Source: Bacillus weihaiensis
GTDB taxonomy: Bacteria > Bacillota > Bacilli > Bacillales > Bacillaceae
Reading direction: 5' to 3'
Length of the DNA stretch: 64,000 bases
Assembly (NCBI RefSeq): GCF_001889165.1
Contig: NZ_CP016020.1
Coordinates: 1,586,501-1,650,500 of the forward strand
The notes beneath the pieces are model-generated. The model saw nothing but the letters and a program-made list of their open reading frames with translations. It was not told the DNA's origin and made no database searches. The position numbers were made by a program, and so were the translations under genes. Every line of letters begins with the position of its first letter. Position 1 is the first letter of the stretch. Of the stretch, positions 1,199-61,312 are shown in pieces.

Positions 1199-2371
1199 AT
1201 GAGGTATTTAACTGCTGGAGAATCACATGGACCTCAATTAACAGCTATAGTTGAAGGTGTACCGTCAGGCTTAAATATAACGGCAGAGATGATTAATAAG
1301 GATTTAGCCAGAAGACAAAAAGGACATGGTCGCGGTAGAAGAATGCAAATTGAAAAGGATCAGGTTCAGTTATTAGGTGGCGTTCGTCATGGGAAAGCAT
1401 TAGGTTCACCAATCTCATTAGTTGTAGAGAATAATGACTGGAAGCATTGGACTAAAATTATGGGTGTTGAACCGATTTCTAATGAAGAAGAACAAGAAGT
1501 TAAACGACAAATATCCAGACCGCGCCCAGGACATGCTGACTTAGTTGGAGCTATTAAATATGGGCATCGTGATATGAGAAATGTATTAGAGCGTTCTTCT
1601 GCACGGGAAACAACTGTTCGAGTGGCAGTAGGGTCATTAGCTAAACAAATTTTAGCAGAGCTTGGTATAAAAGTAGTTGGACATGTCCTAGAGATTGGCG
1701 GTATTAGAGCTGAAAATACAAACTATAAAGATATAGAGGATCTTTTGAACGTAACAGAGGAATCACCAGTTAGATGTTACGACAAAGAAACAGAACAAAA
1801 AATGATGGACGCTATTGATCAAGCAAAGGCCAATGGTGACTCAATCGGAGGTATAGTTGAGGTTGTAGTGGAAGGGTTGCCAGCTGGTATTGGAAGCTAT
1901 GTACATTACGATCGAAAGCTTGATAGTAAAATTGCCGGTGCAATTGTAAGTATTAATGCGTTTAAGGGCGTTGAATTTGGCATCGGATTTGAAGCTGCAC
2001 GTAAGTTTGGTAGTCAAGTACATGATGAAATTCAATGGTCAGAGGATGATGGCTATACACGTCGTACAAATCGTCTAGGAGGATTTGAGGGGGGCATGAC
2101 TACTGGGATGCCCGTTATTGTAAGAGGTGTGATGAAACCAATCCCTACATTATACAAACCTTTACAAAGTGTAGATATTGATAGTAAGGAGCCTTTTAGT
2201 GCAAGTATTGAACGCTCAGATAGCTGTGCGGTTCCAGCAGCCAGTGTTGTTGCTGAATCTGTTGTAGCTTGGGAAATTGCTAATGCGATTGTTGAACAGT
2301 TTGGACTTGATCGAATGGATTTAATAAAAGAGAATGTGAATAAAATGAGAGAATATTCGAGGGGATTTTAA
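1199..2371 (+). CDS. aroC: Chorismate synthase
   Basis: Last step of the shikimate pathway: converts 5-enolpyruvylshikimate 3-phosphate to chorismate using reduced FMN. The 390-aa length is usual. Family signatures are visible: [14 protein letters not shown] near residue 8, RPRPGHADL near 110, [14 protein letters not shown] near 135, and the C-terminal [14 protein letters not shown]. Start ATG 1199 follows AAGGGAGAG; an upstream in-frame start at 1181 has no better support. The stop overlaps the aroB ATG by one base (TAATG), indicating translational coupling. Called aroF in B. subtilis. Confidence 0.97.
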
Positions 2372-30629: not shown

Positions 30630-30635
30630 TCCCTT

Positions 30636-30832
30636 GGGTAGTATCTTTATGAACTACACCACAGAAGGAGTTATTTTATTACATTTGTTAACACACTAGG
30701 TTCGTCTATGTGTGTTATAACTTAACTTTATGATCTGCCTTGATCCAAGAAGGACTAGGACAGAGGGATGAATTACTACTAGTCGATATATTCAAATCCT
30801 TCTACCTTTGTCATACGTAGAAGGATTTTTTA
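30636..30832 (+). ncRNA. Candidate small RNA or leader RNA upstream of panB
   Basis: About 200 nt between an extended -10 promoter and an intrinsic terminator. It contains a hairpin TAACACAC (30689-30696) / GTGTGTTA (30710-30717) and a possible 16-codon ORF at 30649-30699 reading MNYTTEGVILLHLLTH whose stop falls in the loop side of that hairpin; no good SD precedes the ORF. I do not recognise a known RNA family. It may be a free small RNA or an attenuator for panBC. Confidence 0.45.
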
Positions 30833-51605: not shown

Positions 51606-52085
51606 TTAAGCATCATGGCTTTCAATTTCTATTGTTCTTACTTTTTTCGGAATTGTTACAAGTAGAGTACCGTCTTGAAAAGTTGTTTTTATTTCATGTT
51701 CTTTAACGGGATAAGGTAGAAGAATGGTTTTAGAGACTCGATCTAACGAAGAAAAGCTTCTATAAGTTGCGTGGTTTTCATTATACTCTTGAATTTCTTC
51801 TTTATTGGTAATTTGTATTGTTAAATATTGTTCATAAAGTTCAAGTCGAATTTGATCTTTCTTTACTGGTGGTATTTTTAGTGTAATGATACAATTTTCA
51901 TCCGTTTCGTAAGTATCAGCTGTAATGGGCTGATGAGGGAATGATTGATCCAAAATAGCATCGAATTCCCCGATAAACTGTTTAATTGGCTCAGAACGAA
52001 AAAATTGATCAACAATTTGAAAGAAATCTAGACTTCCCATTGTTTTACCATTATTTTGGTTTACCAAATCAGCTTTTTTCTTCAT
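51606..52085 (-). CDS. Hsp20 / alpha-crystallin family protein
   Basis: 159 aa. A divergent alpha-crystallin domain from about residue 55 (YETDENCIITLKIPPVKKDQ) to the C terminus, with the expected DGTLLVTIPKK strand near 140-150. N terminus MGSLDFFQIVDQFFRSEP amphipathic. SD AAGGAGGAAATGAC before ATG. Spore-coat-associated Hsp20s exist in bacilli; whether this is one is unknown. Divergent from the EIIA gene, sharing a 139-bp upstream region. Confidence 0.85.
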   Translation of the reverse strand: MKKKADLVNQNNGKTMGSLDFFQIVDQFFRSEPIKQFIGEFDAILDQSFPHQPITADTYETDENCIITLKIPPVKKDQIRLELYEQYLTIQITNKEEIQEYNENHATYRSFSSLDRVSKTILLPYPVKEHEIKTTFQDGTLLVTIPKKVRTIEIESHDA

Positions 52086-52218
52086 GTCATTTCCTCCTTA
52101 CCTGCATTGTAAATATAAGTCAAATTATTATATGTACTAAAAGGGGGAAGTGTTATTCTTACATACATACTGTTTCAACTTGTGGATGGAGGGTAAATTA
52201 AAACATAAGTATAGTAAA

Positions 52219-52224
52219 GGAGTA
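52219..52224 (+). promoter_or_regulatory. ypqE Shine-Dalgarno at the 5' exon edge
   Basis: GGAGTA, the end of AAAGGAGTA (52216-52224), is the last exon sequence before the intron. Joined to the 3' exon (GGTATTATG from 54862) it gives AAAGGAG, 8 nt, ATG: a normal RBS. In the unspliced DNA the SD is 2.6 kb away from its start codon. Confidence 0.75.
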
Positions 52225-54861
52225 GCGCGACAAGTTTTGTCATAAGCGCTTATGTGTGAAAAGACAAGGGATTTCTACGGAAATCCTAACTTCATAACCG
52301 AGGATAGGAATGATAAAACCACGTATTTTGAAACTATCCCATTAATATTCCTGCATGCGTCATAATTGACAGATTATGGGGTCTGGAGCTCAGGTGAAGT
52401 CGGCAGAACAAAGGCTGAAGCCATTCCGTGTGGAAAGGGTATGCCAATGGATATGCCGGATGGCTGAAAAACTAAATATGGTGAGAATTATCTTGTGGAA
52501 AAGAACAGACGAACTTCCGAATGTACGGGTCTAGAGTTACGAGCAATAGGAAACTATTGTCCCATCGTACGATGGGGTGAGTGACGTAGAGTAAAAATTG
52601 CTCCTCTGAAACACGTTATATCGAACTATGGCGATATCCAGCTCACAGGCTTACAGGAAGCACCTAAGTTTAGAATGGATAGCTAGGTTATAAGGTACTT
52701 GGAAAGTAAGGGACGTTGATTCAAGGGCTGTCACCCAAAACGGTTGCTATAAGTTTATGACGAAATGCATTTGTCCTTATGAGGGTAGGGGTACGACTGG
52801 TGAAGCCTTTGTAATGAAGGTGGAGGAACAGCCCCAAGTCTAGCGATAGTTTTAATTATTTTTCAAATGTGCATTGCACCGGTCGGGTAAGAACGTGGGA
52901 ACATCACTTCATAAAGGAATGATGCCACAGTGCAAGCTCTACGATACTGGGATTATTATGATATGACTGACACCTTTACAGACTTACATCAACGGGCAAA
53001 AAATAAAGAAACGTTCCATTATCTATACGACATTATCACGTCGAGGAATAATATTTTATTAGCTTATCGAACAATTAAGTCAAATAAAGGGTCGAAGACT
53101 CCCGGTACAGATGGGAAAACCATATTAGATATCGAGAAACGAACCGAGAATGAATTAATAGAAGAAGTACAGAGACAGCTCAAGAATTATCGTCCAAAGA
53201 AAGTAAGACGGAAACTGATAGAAAAAGATAATGGCAAAATGCGACCATTAGGCATTCCATGCATCCTCGATAGAATTATTCAACAGTGTTTTAAACAAGT
53301 GCTAGAGCCAATCGCGGAAGCTCACTTTTACAACCACAGTTACGGATTTAGACCTCTACGGTCTACCCACCATGCAATGGCAAGAATACAATTTTTAGTT
53401 AATCATTCAAAACTTCATTACGTTGTAGACATTGATATTAAGGGATTCTTTGACAATATCAATCACACACTACTAATTAAACAACTATGGAGTATAGGCA
53501 TTCGAGACAGACAAGTCCTCGCATGTATTGCTAAAATGTTAAAAGCCGAGATTGATGGCGAGGGTATCCCTACTAAAGGCTCTCCGCAAGGTGGGTTGTT
53601 ATCGCCGCTGCTATCGAACATTGTTTTAAATGAGCTAGACCAATGGGTGGCGAATCAATGGGAACTATTCCCCCTTCATAAATCATTCAAGTCTAGGGAA
53701 GGTGAACTTCTCGCGAAAAAGCGCACTCATCTAAAAGAAGGTTATCTGGTACGTTACGCAGATGACTTCAAAATACTTTGTCGAGATTGGAAAACAGCTG
53801 AAAAATGGTATCATGCAGTAAAGCTATTCCTAAAAGAACGTCTAAAACTTGATATATCACCAGAAAAATCGAAGATTATTAATCTACGTAAGCATGCATC
53901 TGCTTTTCTTGGATTTACCATACTCGCAAATCGTAAAGGTAAAAAAAGAGTGGCTCACACTTTTGTTCGAGCCGAGAAAGTACAGAAGATAAAAGCTGAA
54001 ACAAAGAAACGGATTGAAATACTTCGCTCTTCACCAACAGCTGAAAATGCTTTGCGTTTTAATAGTTTTGTCTTAGGGTTACATAATTACTTCTGCAGAG
54101 CTACACACGTTAATTTAGCGTTCTCGCGTCTTGCTTATGAAATAGGTGCAATGATGTACAATCGTCTTAAGCCTATCGGGAAATATTCACATCCAACGAA
54201 TGCACCACCAACTTATAAGAAATTTTATAGTTTGGGGTTCAAGACATTTGAAATTGCTGGTATTCACCTTTTCCCACTCGCCAATGTTCAGACAAAAAAC
54301 GTTATTAGCTTCACACAAAGTCGAACACCATTCACGATGGAGGGACGAGAGCAGATTATTAAAAATTTGCAAAAGAATATTAAGCATGAAATAGCTTTAT
54401 TACTGGAATCGAAAATCCCGACACGGAGTGTCGAATATATGGACAACCGAATTAGTCGATACAGTATGAAAAAAGGAATCTGTGAAATCACGGGATTATT
54501 CCTCCAAGCACAAGATGTGCACTGTCATCACTATATTCCTATACATCTGGAAGGAAGTGACAAGTTTCATAACTTACGCATCCTTCACAAAGATGTACAT
54601 AAACTTATCCATATGAAAGATTCAGCTAAGATAGATTTACTCAAGAAAATTCTGGGCATCACAGAACCGATGCTTAAGAAAATCAATAAATATCGGGAAA
54701 AATGTGAGTTAGAAATTATATAATCCAGAACCAAGAGTAACTTGAAACTTATAATTAATATAACTTCGTTAGATGGAACGCGGAATGCTAGGAAACTGGC
54801 ACGTTCCGTGTGGAGCAGGGGAAAAGCCGGAGATAATCTCAAACGCTTACCTATTGCTAAC
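52225..54861 (+). mobile_element. Full-length group II intron
   Basis: 2,637-nt retroelement. The 5' end GCGCGAC follows exon AGGAGTA; TGCTCCT at 52599-52605 can pair with that exon (candidate EBS1). Domain V is a canonical 34-mer at 54778-54811: ACGCGGAA/TTCCGTGT, a CG bulge, and TGCTAG-GAAA-CTGGCA. Domain VI follows with a bulged A near 54853, eight nt before the 3' end AC (54861). The encoded protein is intact, so the intron is probably mobile and splicing. Boundaries are inferred from pairing and structure. Confidence 0.92.
52930..54723 (+). CDS. ltrA: Group II intron reverse transcriptase / maturase / HNH endonuclease
   Basis: 597 aa. RT domain: GKMRPLGIPCILDRIIQQCF, SYGFRPLRSTHHAMARIQF, VVDIDIKGFFDNI, TKGSPQGGLLSPLLSNIVL and the catalytic YADD in VRYADDFKIL (about residues 277-286). 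Then a maturase (X) domain and a C-terminal HNH module (CEITGLFLQ, HCHHYIPIHLEGSDKFHNL, KDVHKLIH). GTG 52930 starts the family-typical RYWDYYDMT sequence. Drives splicing and retrohoming. Confidence 0.95.
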   Translation: MQALRYWDYYDMTDTFTDLHQRAKNKETFHYLYDIITSRNNILLAYRTIKSNKGSKTPGTDGKTILDIEKRTENELIEEVQRQLKNYRPKKVRRKLIEKDNGKMRPLGIPCILDRIIQQCFKQVLEPIAEAHFYNHSYGFRPLRSTHHAMARIQFLVNHSKLHYVVDIDIKGFFDNINHTLLIKQLWSIGIRDRQVLACIAKMLKAEIDGEGIPTKGSPQGGLLSPLLSNIVLNELDQWVANQWELFPLHKSFKSREGELLAKKRTHLKEGYLVRYADDFKILCRDWKTAEKWYHAVKLFLKERLKLDISPEKSKIINLRKHASAFLGFTILANRKGKKRVAHTFVRAEKVQKIKAETKKRIEILRSSPTAENALRFNSFVLGLHNYFCRATHVNLAFSRLAYEIGAMMYNRLKPIGKYSHPTNAPPTYKKFYSLGFKTFEIAGIHLFPLANVQTKNVISFTQSRTPFTMEGREQIIKNLQKNIKHEIALLLESKIPTRSVEYMDNRISRYSMKKGICEITGLFLQAQDVHCHHYIPIHLEGSDKFHNLRILHKDVHKLIHMKDSAKIDLLKKILGITEPMLKKINKYREKCELEII

Positions 54862-54867
54862 GGTATT

Positions 54868-55368
54868 ATGCTGAAGTCACTTTTTGGAAAAAAGGAGAAA
54901 AAAACAGAAGAAACATTGTATTCGCCTCTAACAGGAGAAGTTTTGAAGCTTGAAGATGTCCCAGATCCAGTTTTTTCTCAAAAGTTAATGGGGGAAGGTT
55001 TTGCGGTTGAACCAAGTGACGGCTCAGTTGTATCACCGATAAATGGACAAGTTATTCAAGTATTTCATACGAAACATGCAATTGGTTTACGTTCTGAAAC
55101 AGGGGTAGAGATCCTTATTCATATCGGTTTAGAAACTGTAAGCTTGGATGGAGATGGGTTTGAAGTCCATGTTAAAGAAGGTCAAAAAGTGAAAGTGGGA
55201 GATTTACTGATATCTGCTCATTTATCATTAATTAGTGAGAAAGCAGAAAGTATTATTACACCTATTGTTATGACCAATTCAGATGTTATTGAAGAGGTAA
55301 GTGAAATGATTACTGGAAGTGCTACTAAAGGTACTACAAAGGTATGTACAGTTAGAGTAAAAAGATAG
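54868..55368 (+). CDS. ypqE: PTS glucose-type EIIA component (YpqE)
   Basis: 166-aa single-domain EIIA of the glucose family: PVFSQKLMGEGFAVEP (about residues 30-45), phospho-site region IGLRSETGVEILIHIGLETV (about 78-97, His in ILIHIG) and DGFEVHVKEGQKV. No EIIB/EIIC partner is present here. True start is ATG 54868; an in-frame extension from 54742 is intron domain V/VI sequence. Its SD is supplied by the 5' exon across the intron. Confidence 0.93.
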   Translation: MLKSLFGKKEKKTEETLYSPLTGEVLKLEDVPDPVFSQKLMGEGFAVEPSDGSVVSPINGQVIQVFHTKHAIGLRSETGVEILIHIGLETVSLDGDGFEVHVKEGQKVKVGDLLISAHLSLISEKAESIITPIVMTNSDVIEEVSEMITGSATKGTTKVCTVRVKR

Positions 55369-55565: not shown

Positions 55566-57857
55566 ATGGAATTTAAACAAACATTATCTACATTATTAAA
55601 AACATTACAATCTGACAGCCAATTTTCAAATCAAATTGTACATTGGCAAACAATACCATCAAGGGAAGCGGTATTTTCAGAAATTCCCCTTGATCTAGAT
55701 AGTCGTCTAAAAGAAGCATTAAATCGACGTGGAATTAATCAATTATACTCACACCAAAATGAAGCCTATGAATTTGCCAAGAAAGGGCAACATTTCGTCG
55801 CTGTAACACCGACTGCCTCCGGAAAAACACTTTGCTATAACTTACCCGTCTTGCAAAAAATCTTAGAAGATGAGAACAGTAGAGCTTTGTATTTGTTTCC
55901 AACAAAAGCTCTAGCACAAGATCAAAAATCAGAAATGAACGAATTAATAAGTGAAATGGGGGTGAACATTAACTCCTATACCTATGATGGAGACACGTCA
56001 CCTGCCATTCGTCAAAAAGTAAGGAAAGCTGGTCATATTGTTATTACCAACCCTGATATGTTGCATTCGGCAATCTTACCGCACCATACAAAGTGGGTCT
56101 CTTTATTTGAAAATCTTAAATATATTGTTATTGATGAGTTACATATTTATAGAGGGATTTTTGGAAGCCACGTATCAAATGTGATTAGAAGATTAAAACG
56201 TATTTGTCGATTTTACGGTAGTAATCCTCAATTTATTTGTACGTCAGCAACAATAGCTAATCCAAAAGAACTAGCTGAAACTCTGACAGGAACAAATATG
56301 AGATTGATTAATAAAAGTGGTGCACCTGTTAGTAAGAAACACTTTATTTTTTATAATCCACCAATTGTTAATAAACCTTTGAATATTAGAAGAAGTGCTA
56401 CATTGGAGGTAAGAAGATTAGCAGGTCATTTTTTGAAGAATAAAATCCAGACGATTGTTTTTGCAAGAAGCAGAGTAAGGGTAGAAATTATCTTAACGTA
56501 TTTACATGAATTGGTTAGAAATGAGCTTGTGAAAAAGTCGATAAGAGGTTATCGTGGTGGATACTTGCCTAAACAGAGAAGAGAGATTGAACAAGGGCTA
56601 AGAAATGGAGAAATTCTTGGAGTTGTCAGTACAAATGCGTTGGAATTAGGAGTTGATATAGGGAGTTTACAAGTGTGTATTATGACAGGTTACCCTGGTA
56701 CTATTGCAAGTGCATGGCAACAAGCTGGACGAGCTGGTAGAAGAAATGGGGAAGCTGTAATCCTTATGGTAGCTAGCTCCAGTCCGTTGGATCAGTACAT
56801 TATTCAAAATCCTCAATACTTTTTTGAGCAAAATCCCGAAACAGCCATCATTAATCCGGATAATTTAGTTGTATTAGTTGACCATCTAAAATGCGCTGCT
56901 TTTGAACTTCCTTTTAAACAAGGTGATACTTTCGACGGTGTAGAATTAGAAGACATTTTACAATTCCTTGCTGAAGAGAGGGTCCTTCATTTTAACGATG
57001 ACACATACCATTGGATGAATGATTCCTTCCCAGCGCATAACATTAGCTTAAGATCTGCTTCGCAGGAAAATGTTATCATCATTGATCAATCAGATCGAGG
57101 AAATGTTAAAGTAATTGGTGAAATGGACCGATTTAGTGCGATGACATTGTTACACGATGAAGCAATTTATCTTCACCAAGGTGTTCAATTTCAAGTCGAG
57201 AAGCTTGATTGGGAAGAGAAAAAAGCATTCGTTAGAGAAGTAGATGTAGATTACTTTACAGACGCAAATCTCGCCGTGCAATTAAAGGTTCTCGAAGAAG
57301 ATATGCTGAAAGAAAAAAATGGCAGCCAAATAGGATTTGGAGATGTAACGGTTCAAGCCATGGCTACAATTTTCAAGAAAATAAAATTCGATACACATGA
57401 AAATATTGGCTCTGGTCCTATCTATCTTCCGGAAGAGGAACTTCATACAACTTCATCTTGGGTTAGCCTTGGGGAAGAAATAGTATCGAAATATACGGAA
57501 AAAAGAATGGAAGAGGCATTAGTAGGTGCAGCACATGTACTACAACATGTTTCTCCCTTAAAGGTCATGTGTGATCCTTCTGATTTACACGTTATTTCAC
57601 AGGTTAAAGCCATTCACAACAACAAGCCAACAATTTTCATGTATGACCGATACCCAGGTGGAGTTGGACTATCAAAAAGACTGTACGAAAATATGCATGA
57701 GGTTATTGAAGAATCGATATCCTTATTAACAAATTGCCCATGTCACACAGGTTGTCCATCGTGTATTGGGGCAGAAGCATTTTCAGAATCGGTAAAGCAG
57801 GATACGTATCATTTATTGCAACATTTAAAGGACGAGGTATATGTCATTAATCAATAA
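55566..57857 (+). CDS. mrfA: DNA repair helicase MrfA (YprA)
   Basis: 763-aa superfamily 2 helicase. Walker A TPTASGKTLCYNLP (about residues 81-94), DExH box IDELHIYRG (about 198), helicase C-terminal domain with QAGRAGRRNGE (about 389-399), and a DUF1998-type C terminus with four cysteines in CPCHTGCPSC (zinc-binding type). In B. subtilis YprA/MrfA works with YprB/MrfB in repair of mitomycin C adducts. Overlaps mrfB by 17 nt. Confidence 0.94.
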   Translation: MEFKQTLSTLLKTLQSDSQFSNQIVHWQTIPSREAVFSEIPLDLDSRLKEALNRRGINQLYSHQNEAYEFAKKGQHFVAVTPTASGKTLCYNLPVLQKILEDENSRALYLFPTKALAQDQKSEMNELISEMGVNINSYTYDGDTSPAIRQKVRKAGHIVITNPDMLHSAILPHHTKWVSLFENLKYIVIDELHIYRGIFGSHVSNVIRRLKRICRFYGSNPQFICTSATIANPKELAETLTGTNMRLINKSGAPVSKKHFIFYNPPIVNKPLNIRRSATLEVRRLAGHFLKNKIQTIVFARSRVRVEIILTYLHELVRNELVKKSIRGYRGGYLPKQRREIEQGLRNGEILGVVSTNALELGVDIGSLQVCIMTGYPGTIASAWQQAGRAGRRNGEAVILMVASSSPLDQYIIQNPQYFFEQNPETAIINPDNLVVLVDHLKCAAFELPFKQGDTFDGVELEDILQFLAEERVLHFNDDTYHWMNDSFPAHNISLRSASQENVIIIDQSDRGNVKVIGEMDRFSAMTLLHDEAIYLHQGVQFQVEKLDWEEKKAFVREVDVDYFTDANLAVQLKVLEEDMLKEKNGSQIGFGDVTVQAMATIFKKIKFDTHENIGSGPIYLPEEELHTTSSWVSLGEEIVSKYTEKRMEEALVGAAHVLQHVSPLKVMCDPSDLHVISQVKAIHNNKPTIFMYDRYPGGVGLSKRLYENMHEVIEESISLLTNCPCHTGCPSCIGAEAFSESVKQDTYHLLQHLKDEVYVINQ

Positions 57858-60898: not shown

Positions 60899-61312
60899 GT
60901 TAATAACGTTCAGGTAATCGCTGCAGTCTATAGGACTGTAGAGGAAAGTCCATGCTCGCACGGTGCTGAGATGCCCGTAGTGTTTGTGCCTAGCGAAATC
61001 ATAAGCTAGGGCAGCCAGGTTTTTCTTGGCTGACGGCAGGGAAAAAGCCTAAGTCCTTAGGATATGGCTTGACTACCTTGAAAGTGCCACAGTGACGGAG
61101 TCTTGCGAGAAATCGTAAGAGTGGAACGAGGTAAACCCCATGAGCGAGAAACCCAAATTATGGTAGGGGCACCTTCTTGGAGGAATTGAACGAAGAGAAG
61201 GACAAAAGGGTATTCCTTTTTGTAGATAGATGATTACCACCTGAGTACGAGGCCCATAGCCGCTTGGAGTACGATGGAACAAAACATGGCTTATCGAACG
61301 TTATTATCAGTG
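60899..61312 (+). ncRNA. rnpB: RNase P RNA (B-type)
   Basis: Catalytic RNA of RNase P. Aligns along its length with B. subtilis rnpB: GAGGAAAGTCCATGCTCGCA near 60950, GAAAGTGCCACAGTGACG near 61080, GTAAACCCC, GAGAAACCCAAATT, AAGGACA and GATGATT then ACAAAACATGGCTTA near 61280. The ends GTTAATAACGTT and GAACGTTATTA pair to form P1. Ends estimated to within a few nt. Confidence 0.97.

Follow-up and report, generated by a model that had tools for sequence, protein, structure and literature searches.

A group II intron between the Shine-Dalgarno sequence and the start codon of ypqE in Bacillus weihaiensis, and the palindromic sites of its relatives

A complete group II intron of 2637 nt was identified on the forward strand at positions 52225-54861 of the window (the whole stretch of 64,000 nucleotides analyzed here, from Bacillus weihaiensis). 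It separates AAAGGAGTA, the end of the 5' exon, from GGTATTATG of ypqE/ptsA, and hence lies between the Shine-Dalgarno (SD) sequence and the ATG of this gene. The arrangement is very likely the result of a recent off-target retrotransposition, which would have made ypqE translation dependent on splicing as a by-product of the landing site, with no evolved switch. As a natural example it is a clean one: ribozyme splicing should give a bacterial gene back its ribosome-binding site. A literature search covering mostly papers outside subscription access returned no account of an SD parted from its ATG by a group II intron. The unusual part is the target of the intron family and its account of the landing.

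Intron structure and translation of ypqE

A sequence-only reading of the window had placed the intron between the SD and the ypqE ATG with all of its parts apparently functional, and the placement and the intact parts hold up. The intron begins with GCGCG and ends with CTAAC (termini GCGCGACAAG at 52225 and CTATTGCTAAC at 54861). These ends are fixed by the three copies that the genome (4.36 Mb, two contigs) contains, whose flanks are unrelated. A one-base ambiguity remains at the 3' boundary because all three 3' exons start with G, and the 5' boundary is independently supported by the EBS1-IBS1 register over 52 introns. Rfam matches above the gathering score were obtained for D1 (RF02004, 102.5 bits) and for D5/D6 (RF00029, 54776-54860, 52.8 bits). 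The bulged candidate branch A lies 8 nt upstream of the intron 3' end, and we take the D5 triad and the D6 branch A to have their customary roles. The EBS1-IBS1 pairing expected of a group II intron is present, and the 3' end AC follows the 3' AY rule, subject to the one-base ambiguity. The 5' end departs from the GUGYG consensus; as the GCGCG start is common to 23 of the 58 junctions of relatives, it is regarded as a lineage variant, the consensus itself not being obligatory.

The intron-encoded protein (IEP) matched TIGR04416 (group II RT/maturase) with 342 bits, where the cut-off is 300. Its YADD motif, at residue 276 counted from the GTG at 52930, is intact and conserved in relatives. The HNH block is likewise unbroken through CHH...NLRILH and kept in relatives, with a Pfam HNH match below threshold (E 0.012, 16.2 bits vs 21.4). 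Coordinates of all features are given in Table 1.

Table 1. Features of the intron and the ypqE locus, in positions of the window
Feature	Positions	Strand	Remarks
Hsp20-like gene, divergent, conserved ypqE neighbor	51606..52085	-	name by sequence reading
Candidate sigma-B-like promoter GTTTCA-N13-GGGTAA	52172..52196	+	upstream of intron
9-bp hairpin, exons joined only	52208..52216 (left arm AGTATAGTA); 54864-54872 (right arm)	+	predicted, -5.3 kcal/mol
5' exon end AAAGGAGTA	52216..52224	+	SD GGAG 52219-52222; IBS1 GGAGTA 52219-52224
Domain I part	52285..52470	+	RF02004
EBS1 TGCTCC	52599..52604	+	complementary to IBS1, 5 Watson-Crick + 1 G.U
IEP: RT (YADD), maturase, HNH block	52930..54723	+	start GTG 52930 or ATG 52966
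HNH block CEITG..CHHYIP..NLRILH	54478..54600	+	Pfam sub-threshold; conserved in relatives
Domain V, 34 nt	54778..54811	+	CGC at triad position
Domain VI and 3' end	54812..54861	+	candidate branch A 54853
3' exon start GGTATT	54862..54867	+	
ypqE/ptsA, cytoplasmic EIIA-Glc	54868..55368	+	
yprA-like helicase gene, conserved, downstream	55566..57857	+	

When joined, the exons read AAAGGAG, 8 nt, ATG, and the SD is restored at the 8-nt spacing that had been proposed. The predicted SD:anti-SD pairing over the 20 nt preceding the ypqE start codon, calculated with what we take to be the 16S anti-SD tail, was -9.0 kcal/mol for spliced and -3.0 for unspliced RNA. The latter compares with an average of -2.76 kcal/mol for 500 random 20-mers, in agreement with the earlier claim that unspliced RNA carries no SD beside this ATG, while the leaders of nine congeners ranged from -7.4 to -9.3. 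Normal initiation at ypqE is therefore likely to need splicing, a dependence well predicted from this pairing contrast and from the intron-free, SD-bearing leaders of congeners. In unspliced RNA the frame is open back to 54724 in phase with ypqE and includes a TTG at 54742, whose SD pairing is weak (-2.7); some ypqE translation from this codon without splicing is conceivable in principle. Read through D5/D6 into ypqE (window 54742-54867), this frame would yield a possible N-terminally extended EIIA. The GCGCG 5' end and the one G.U in IBS1-EBS1 could also lower splicing at ypqE.

The ypqE frame is open over 166 codons, with an EIIA match over its full length, and a second EIIA-Glc-type domain is encoded in the same genome within a 705-aa frame. 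The downstream helicase gene is presumably yprA. Upstream of the intron, the sigma-B-like site, identified by what we take to be the sigma-B consensus, was seen in just one of the 12 congener leaders scanned and is hence a weak candidate. No sigma-70 promoter was found on the forward strand upstream of the intron, and promoter matches in the region showed no excess (9 vs 10.2 in shuffles). Elsewhere in the window, an RNase P class B RNA (60906-61298) and a pan motif (30635-30767) were both ordinary.

Age of the insertion and target sites of the family

The ypqE copy and one other copy in the genome (L002) are identical across 2637 nt, and the third (L003) differs at two positions, from which the insertion is judged to be recent. 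The two other copies occupy intergenic sites. Among 80 genomes of the family searched at the DNA level, a full-length intron was found only in Bacillus weihaiensis. Any match at all occurred in 19 of the 80, consisting of a 73% copy missing the first 104 nt in one congener and of shorter pieces in the others, and a plasmid search returned a single 54-base piece.

All 13 of the congener ypqE loci examined carry an SD adjoining the ATG without the intron, and none of them encodes the IEP. The hsp20 neighbor is kept in 12 of the 13 (in L085 at just 34% identity; L080 lacks it) and yprA in 11. The sequence-only reading had expected the empty site in relatives, and this stands as to the SD and the missing intron; the spacers differ from AAAGGAGTAGGTATTATG, as is expected at 51-71% YpqE protein identity. 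Coming from different species, these loci would represent the ancestral arrangement rather than the exact pre-insertion sequence.

One protein search yielded 68 related loci in Bacillales, mostly from Paenibacillus and Bacillaceae-type genera. From these, 58 five-prime junctions were read at 54 loci and combined with the three of the B. weihaiensis genome, for a set of 61, of which 39 had a readable 3' exon (36 of the 58 from relatives and all three of its own). The left arm of a palindrome, TTNAACTAACGG, was matched at 8 or more of its 11 positions by 44 of the 61 junctions, as compared with 274 of 20000 random sequences, and the 17 junctions failing this match included ypqE with 7. The complementary arm was present at many of the readable 3' exons (for example, TTGAACTAACGG...CGATAGTTCAATAAAG) and missing at several. 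In the usual sites of the relatives, the palindrome loop is IBS1. Diverged relatives occupy other kinds of site; one of them (L042, 4237) seems to interrupt a dnaX-like coding sequence, judged from its flanks.

The pairing of guide and target was further examined by covariation in 52 introns (one more was left out for an alignment gap), taking the best of two registers. A mean of 5.73 of 6 IBS1-EBS1 pairs was observed, with at least five pairs in 50 of the 52, while 2000 partner shuffles averaged 3.84 pairs and peaked at 4.19, none reaching the observed value. The EBS1 sequence itself varies widely among relatives. EBS1 TGCTCC forms six Watson-Crick pairs with GGAGCA at the genome's own site 3, five pairs and a G.U with GGAGTA at ypqE, and 5/6 pairs with GGTGCA at its own site 2.

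A palindrome matrix, whose 92 training sites average 36.6 and score no lower than 14.5, gave scores of 38.9 for own site 2 and 39.3 for own site 3. The ypqE site scored -2.9, which is under the lowest training site and still within the top 0.017% of 241,766 positions, with help from IBS1. In the joined exons, IBS1 sits in the loop of the predicted 9-bp hairpin. Among 97 scored GGAGYA sites, two reached the ypqE matrix score and three had the cut enclosed by a stem of 9 or more bp, ypqE included in both counts. A role of the hairpin as an insertion factor, noticed after the fact, is suggestive only.

Own site 3 is flanked by two weaker palindromes (L132), and no further palindrome was found near own site 2 (L133). 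A strict palindrome with a 3-base loop spacer had no match in the own genome, and matches were obtained with the corrected spacing. Introns of the family were also seen abutting or nested at L010 (858-3501-4345), L022 (1-98), and L036 (3822 and 4128). At L022 the guide and the end of the upstream intron are mismatched, with 2-3 of 6 pairs, and recombination between intron copies is possible there.

A crude screen for a GGAG-like exon with a nearby start triplet flagged two junctions besides ypqE. Own site 3 was rejected as an SD insertion for its TTG followed by an immediate stop, and L041 for having no convincing gene start. SD insertion was accordingly discarded as a trait of the family.

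Origin of the insertion

The intron family, mobile and endonuclease-bearing, would usually reverse-splice into the loop of a palindrome, between TTNAACTAACGGNGCA and GNTTAGTTNAA. Since the natural target loop is CGGNGCA, the guide must read a G-rich sequence, and the guide TTGCTCCTCT contains CTCCT, a core that also reads SDs. EBS1 TGCTCC would read either GGAGCA or GGAGTA, and the ypqE SD would have supplied the latter, in the loop of a chance hairpin, to an intron that recently retrotransposed to this off-target site. Given the resemblance of a CTCC-bearing EBS1 to an anti-SD, the ypqE SD was probably a decoy for the intron guide, which would explain the landing site mechanistically. The mRNA spliced in vivo would then regain AAAGGAG-8-ATG, and YpqE would be made mainly from it. 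SDs in general may be chemically natural decoys for such guides; landings on them are rare, ypqE being the single convincing case among 61 junctions.

The sequence-only reading had instead regarded the intron as a potential switch of ypqE expression and not as a passive parasite, and this part is not supported. In a domesticated switch, regulated splicing (by maturase level, temperature, or metabolites) would tune the EIIA supply. The strong predicted SD contrast between spliced and unspliced RNA suits such a design, and the C. difficile c-di-GMP group I system offers a precedent for splicing that creates a ribosome-binding site (PMC3984707, in the text available). However, the insertion is recent and near-identical to two intergenic copies, it is absent from the 13 congener loci, and Rfam, which covers described families, found no aptamer or riboswitch in or beside the intron. 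The gene is also redundant in B. subtilis, where the available portion of PMC6148471 presents YpqE (PtsA) as one of three EIIAs, each able to support growth on several sugars, and ypqE expression as independent of PTS sugars. A switch is therefore considered very improbable. The EIIA redundancy, the second EIIA-Glc-type domain, and the recent, uniform copies favor a tolerated passenger.

The same second domain would also accommodate a knock-down, in which poor splicing silences ypqE and the loss is tolerated as another EIIA covers for it. The growth of single ypqE mutants of B. subtilis (PMC6148471, available portion), the G.U in IBS1-EBS1, and the non-canonical 5' end agree with this possibility, but the ribozyme and IEP are intact, IBS1-EBS1 has 6/6 pairs counting the G.U, and the ypqE frame is still open with its full-length EIIA match (though decay would not yet be expected after a recent insertion). 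We regard a knock-down as unlikely, if somewhat less so than a switch. Hardly credible is an intron lineage evolved to target SD sequences: EBS1 holds the anti-SD-like CTCCT and GGAG is part of IBS1, but ypqE is the one convincing SD case among the junctions, and a widely varying EBS1 argues against such a specialization.

Small-gene arrays and known systems

The palindrome pattern TTNAACTAACGGNGCAGNTTAGTTNAA, with at most three mismatches, was found in 20 of 21 congeners at up to 28 per genome, and a reversed-pattern control gave one match overall (G015). With at most two mismatches, 106 out of 299 genomes from the order contained it, the control having none among the rows listed. A matrix scan of 27 array stretches (484 kb), chosen for having palindrome matches, identified 198 sites and none in the control. 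The sites had a single orientation in 26 of the 27 stretches, the exception being L193 with one of each. The units between sites numbered 171 (median 1032 nt), of which 125 measured 150-2500 nt; 111 of these contained an ORF of at least 180 nt, the longest ORF being on the strand of the site in 95. Tandem single-gene units with same-orientation sites, as in integrons, were thus observed in loci chosen for having sites.

End-to-end matches were found for five pairs of units, one of them cross-species. Examples, each at 98% and with differing neighbors, are a 323-nt match linking two G009 arrays and a match of 446/447 nt in G002. Of the testable neighbor sides of matched units, 6/7 differ, and the cross-species pair shares its one testable neighbor. 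Of 193 ends of cross-species alignments, 16.1% lay no more than 60 nt from a site, as compared with 5.4% at random. The arrays have the look of gene cassettes bounded by short sites for recombination. No IntI (TIGR02249) exceeded the cut-off in any of the 21 congeners, and sub-threshold matches also occurred in all 14 control genomes. Rfam returned nothing at the palindromes of six array loci, and no report of these Bacillales arrays was found in the literature covered, mostly papers outside subscription access.

In the available text of PMC4424553, mobile endonuclease-plus Firmicutes introns combine a IIB RNA with a class B IEP. The present intron resembles them in D1, D5, D6, the Firmicutes host, a D4-encoded IEP that has RT and an HNH block, and EBS1-guided insertion. 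It differs from them in GCGCG instead of GUGYG, in the palindromic repeats that house most relatives, and in the ypqE copy splitting an SD from its ATG. Hairpin-forming sites and small-gene arrays are shared with the group IIC-attC and halophile integron IIB introns of PMC7923331 (in the part available), among which UHB.I2 likewise has a non-canonical boundary. Unlike group IIC-attC introns, whose IEP lacks an endonuclease domain, the present lineage conserves the HNH block and enters the palindrome loop rather than a position after attC; and unlike the integrons of that paper, the arrays are in Bacillaceae, with IntI not detected. As in the C. difficile riboswitch/group I intron (PMC3984707, available text), splicing would put a ribosome-binding site beside a start codon, but that system includes an aptamer and splices in two competing ways, and no aptamer was found here. 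Thermosynechococcus TeI3, which has start codons of one IEP gene on either side, is also inserted at a translation-start region; it is an ORF-less intron-in-intron, and the accessible portion of PMC2882425 describes no host gene whose SD and ATG are separated.

A broader reading, offered tentatively and at somewhat less than even confidence, is that the endonuclease-bearing lineage is specialized for the loops of undescribed, IntI-less cassette palindromes of Bacillales, and that its EBS1, being close to the anti-SD, makes SDs natural off-targets where host translation would become conditional on splicing; SD landings could then be one way for splice-dependent genes to come about. Such a tie between an intron lineage and integron-like cassette arrays in Gram-positives would turn the nature of the arrays and their recombinase into a testable question.

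Further features were observed in the arrays. In L135-L141 and L176-L195, which come from congeners, a single palindrome, CTTNTTNAACTAACGGNGCAGGTTAGTTNAANAAG, always in the same orientation, stands between one small gene and the next. At L138 (1451-3357), a cassette-like array houses a group II intron distinct from the present one (RF02005, RF00029). By eye, many sites (for example, in the L111 and L139 region) include a second upstream unit, AACTAACGGGTGCGATAC-TTCAATAAAG-GTATCGC-TTTTT, which resembles a terminator-like hairpin between two palindromes. In pC194 (L196), the chloramphenicol acetyltransferase gene (1260-1907, forward strand) is located between two palindromes on the minus strand, at 1950-1984 and about 1077-1105. 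One of them is top-scoring (matrix 38.7) and the second scores below 8, and their orientation is opposite to that of the gene, unlike in most array units.
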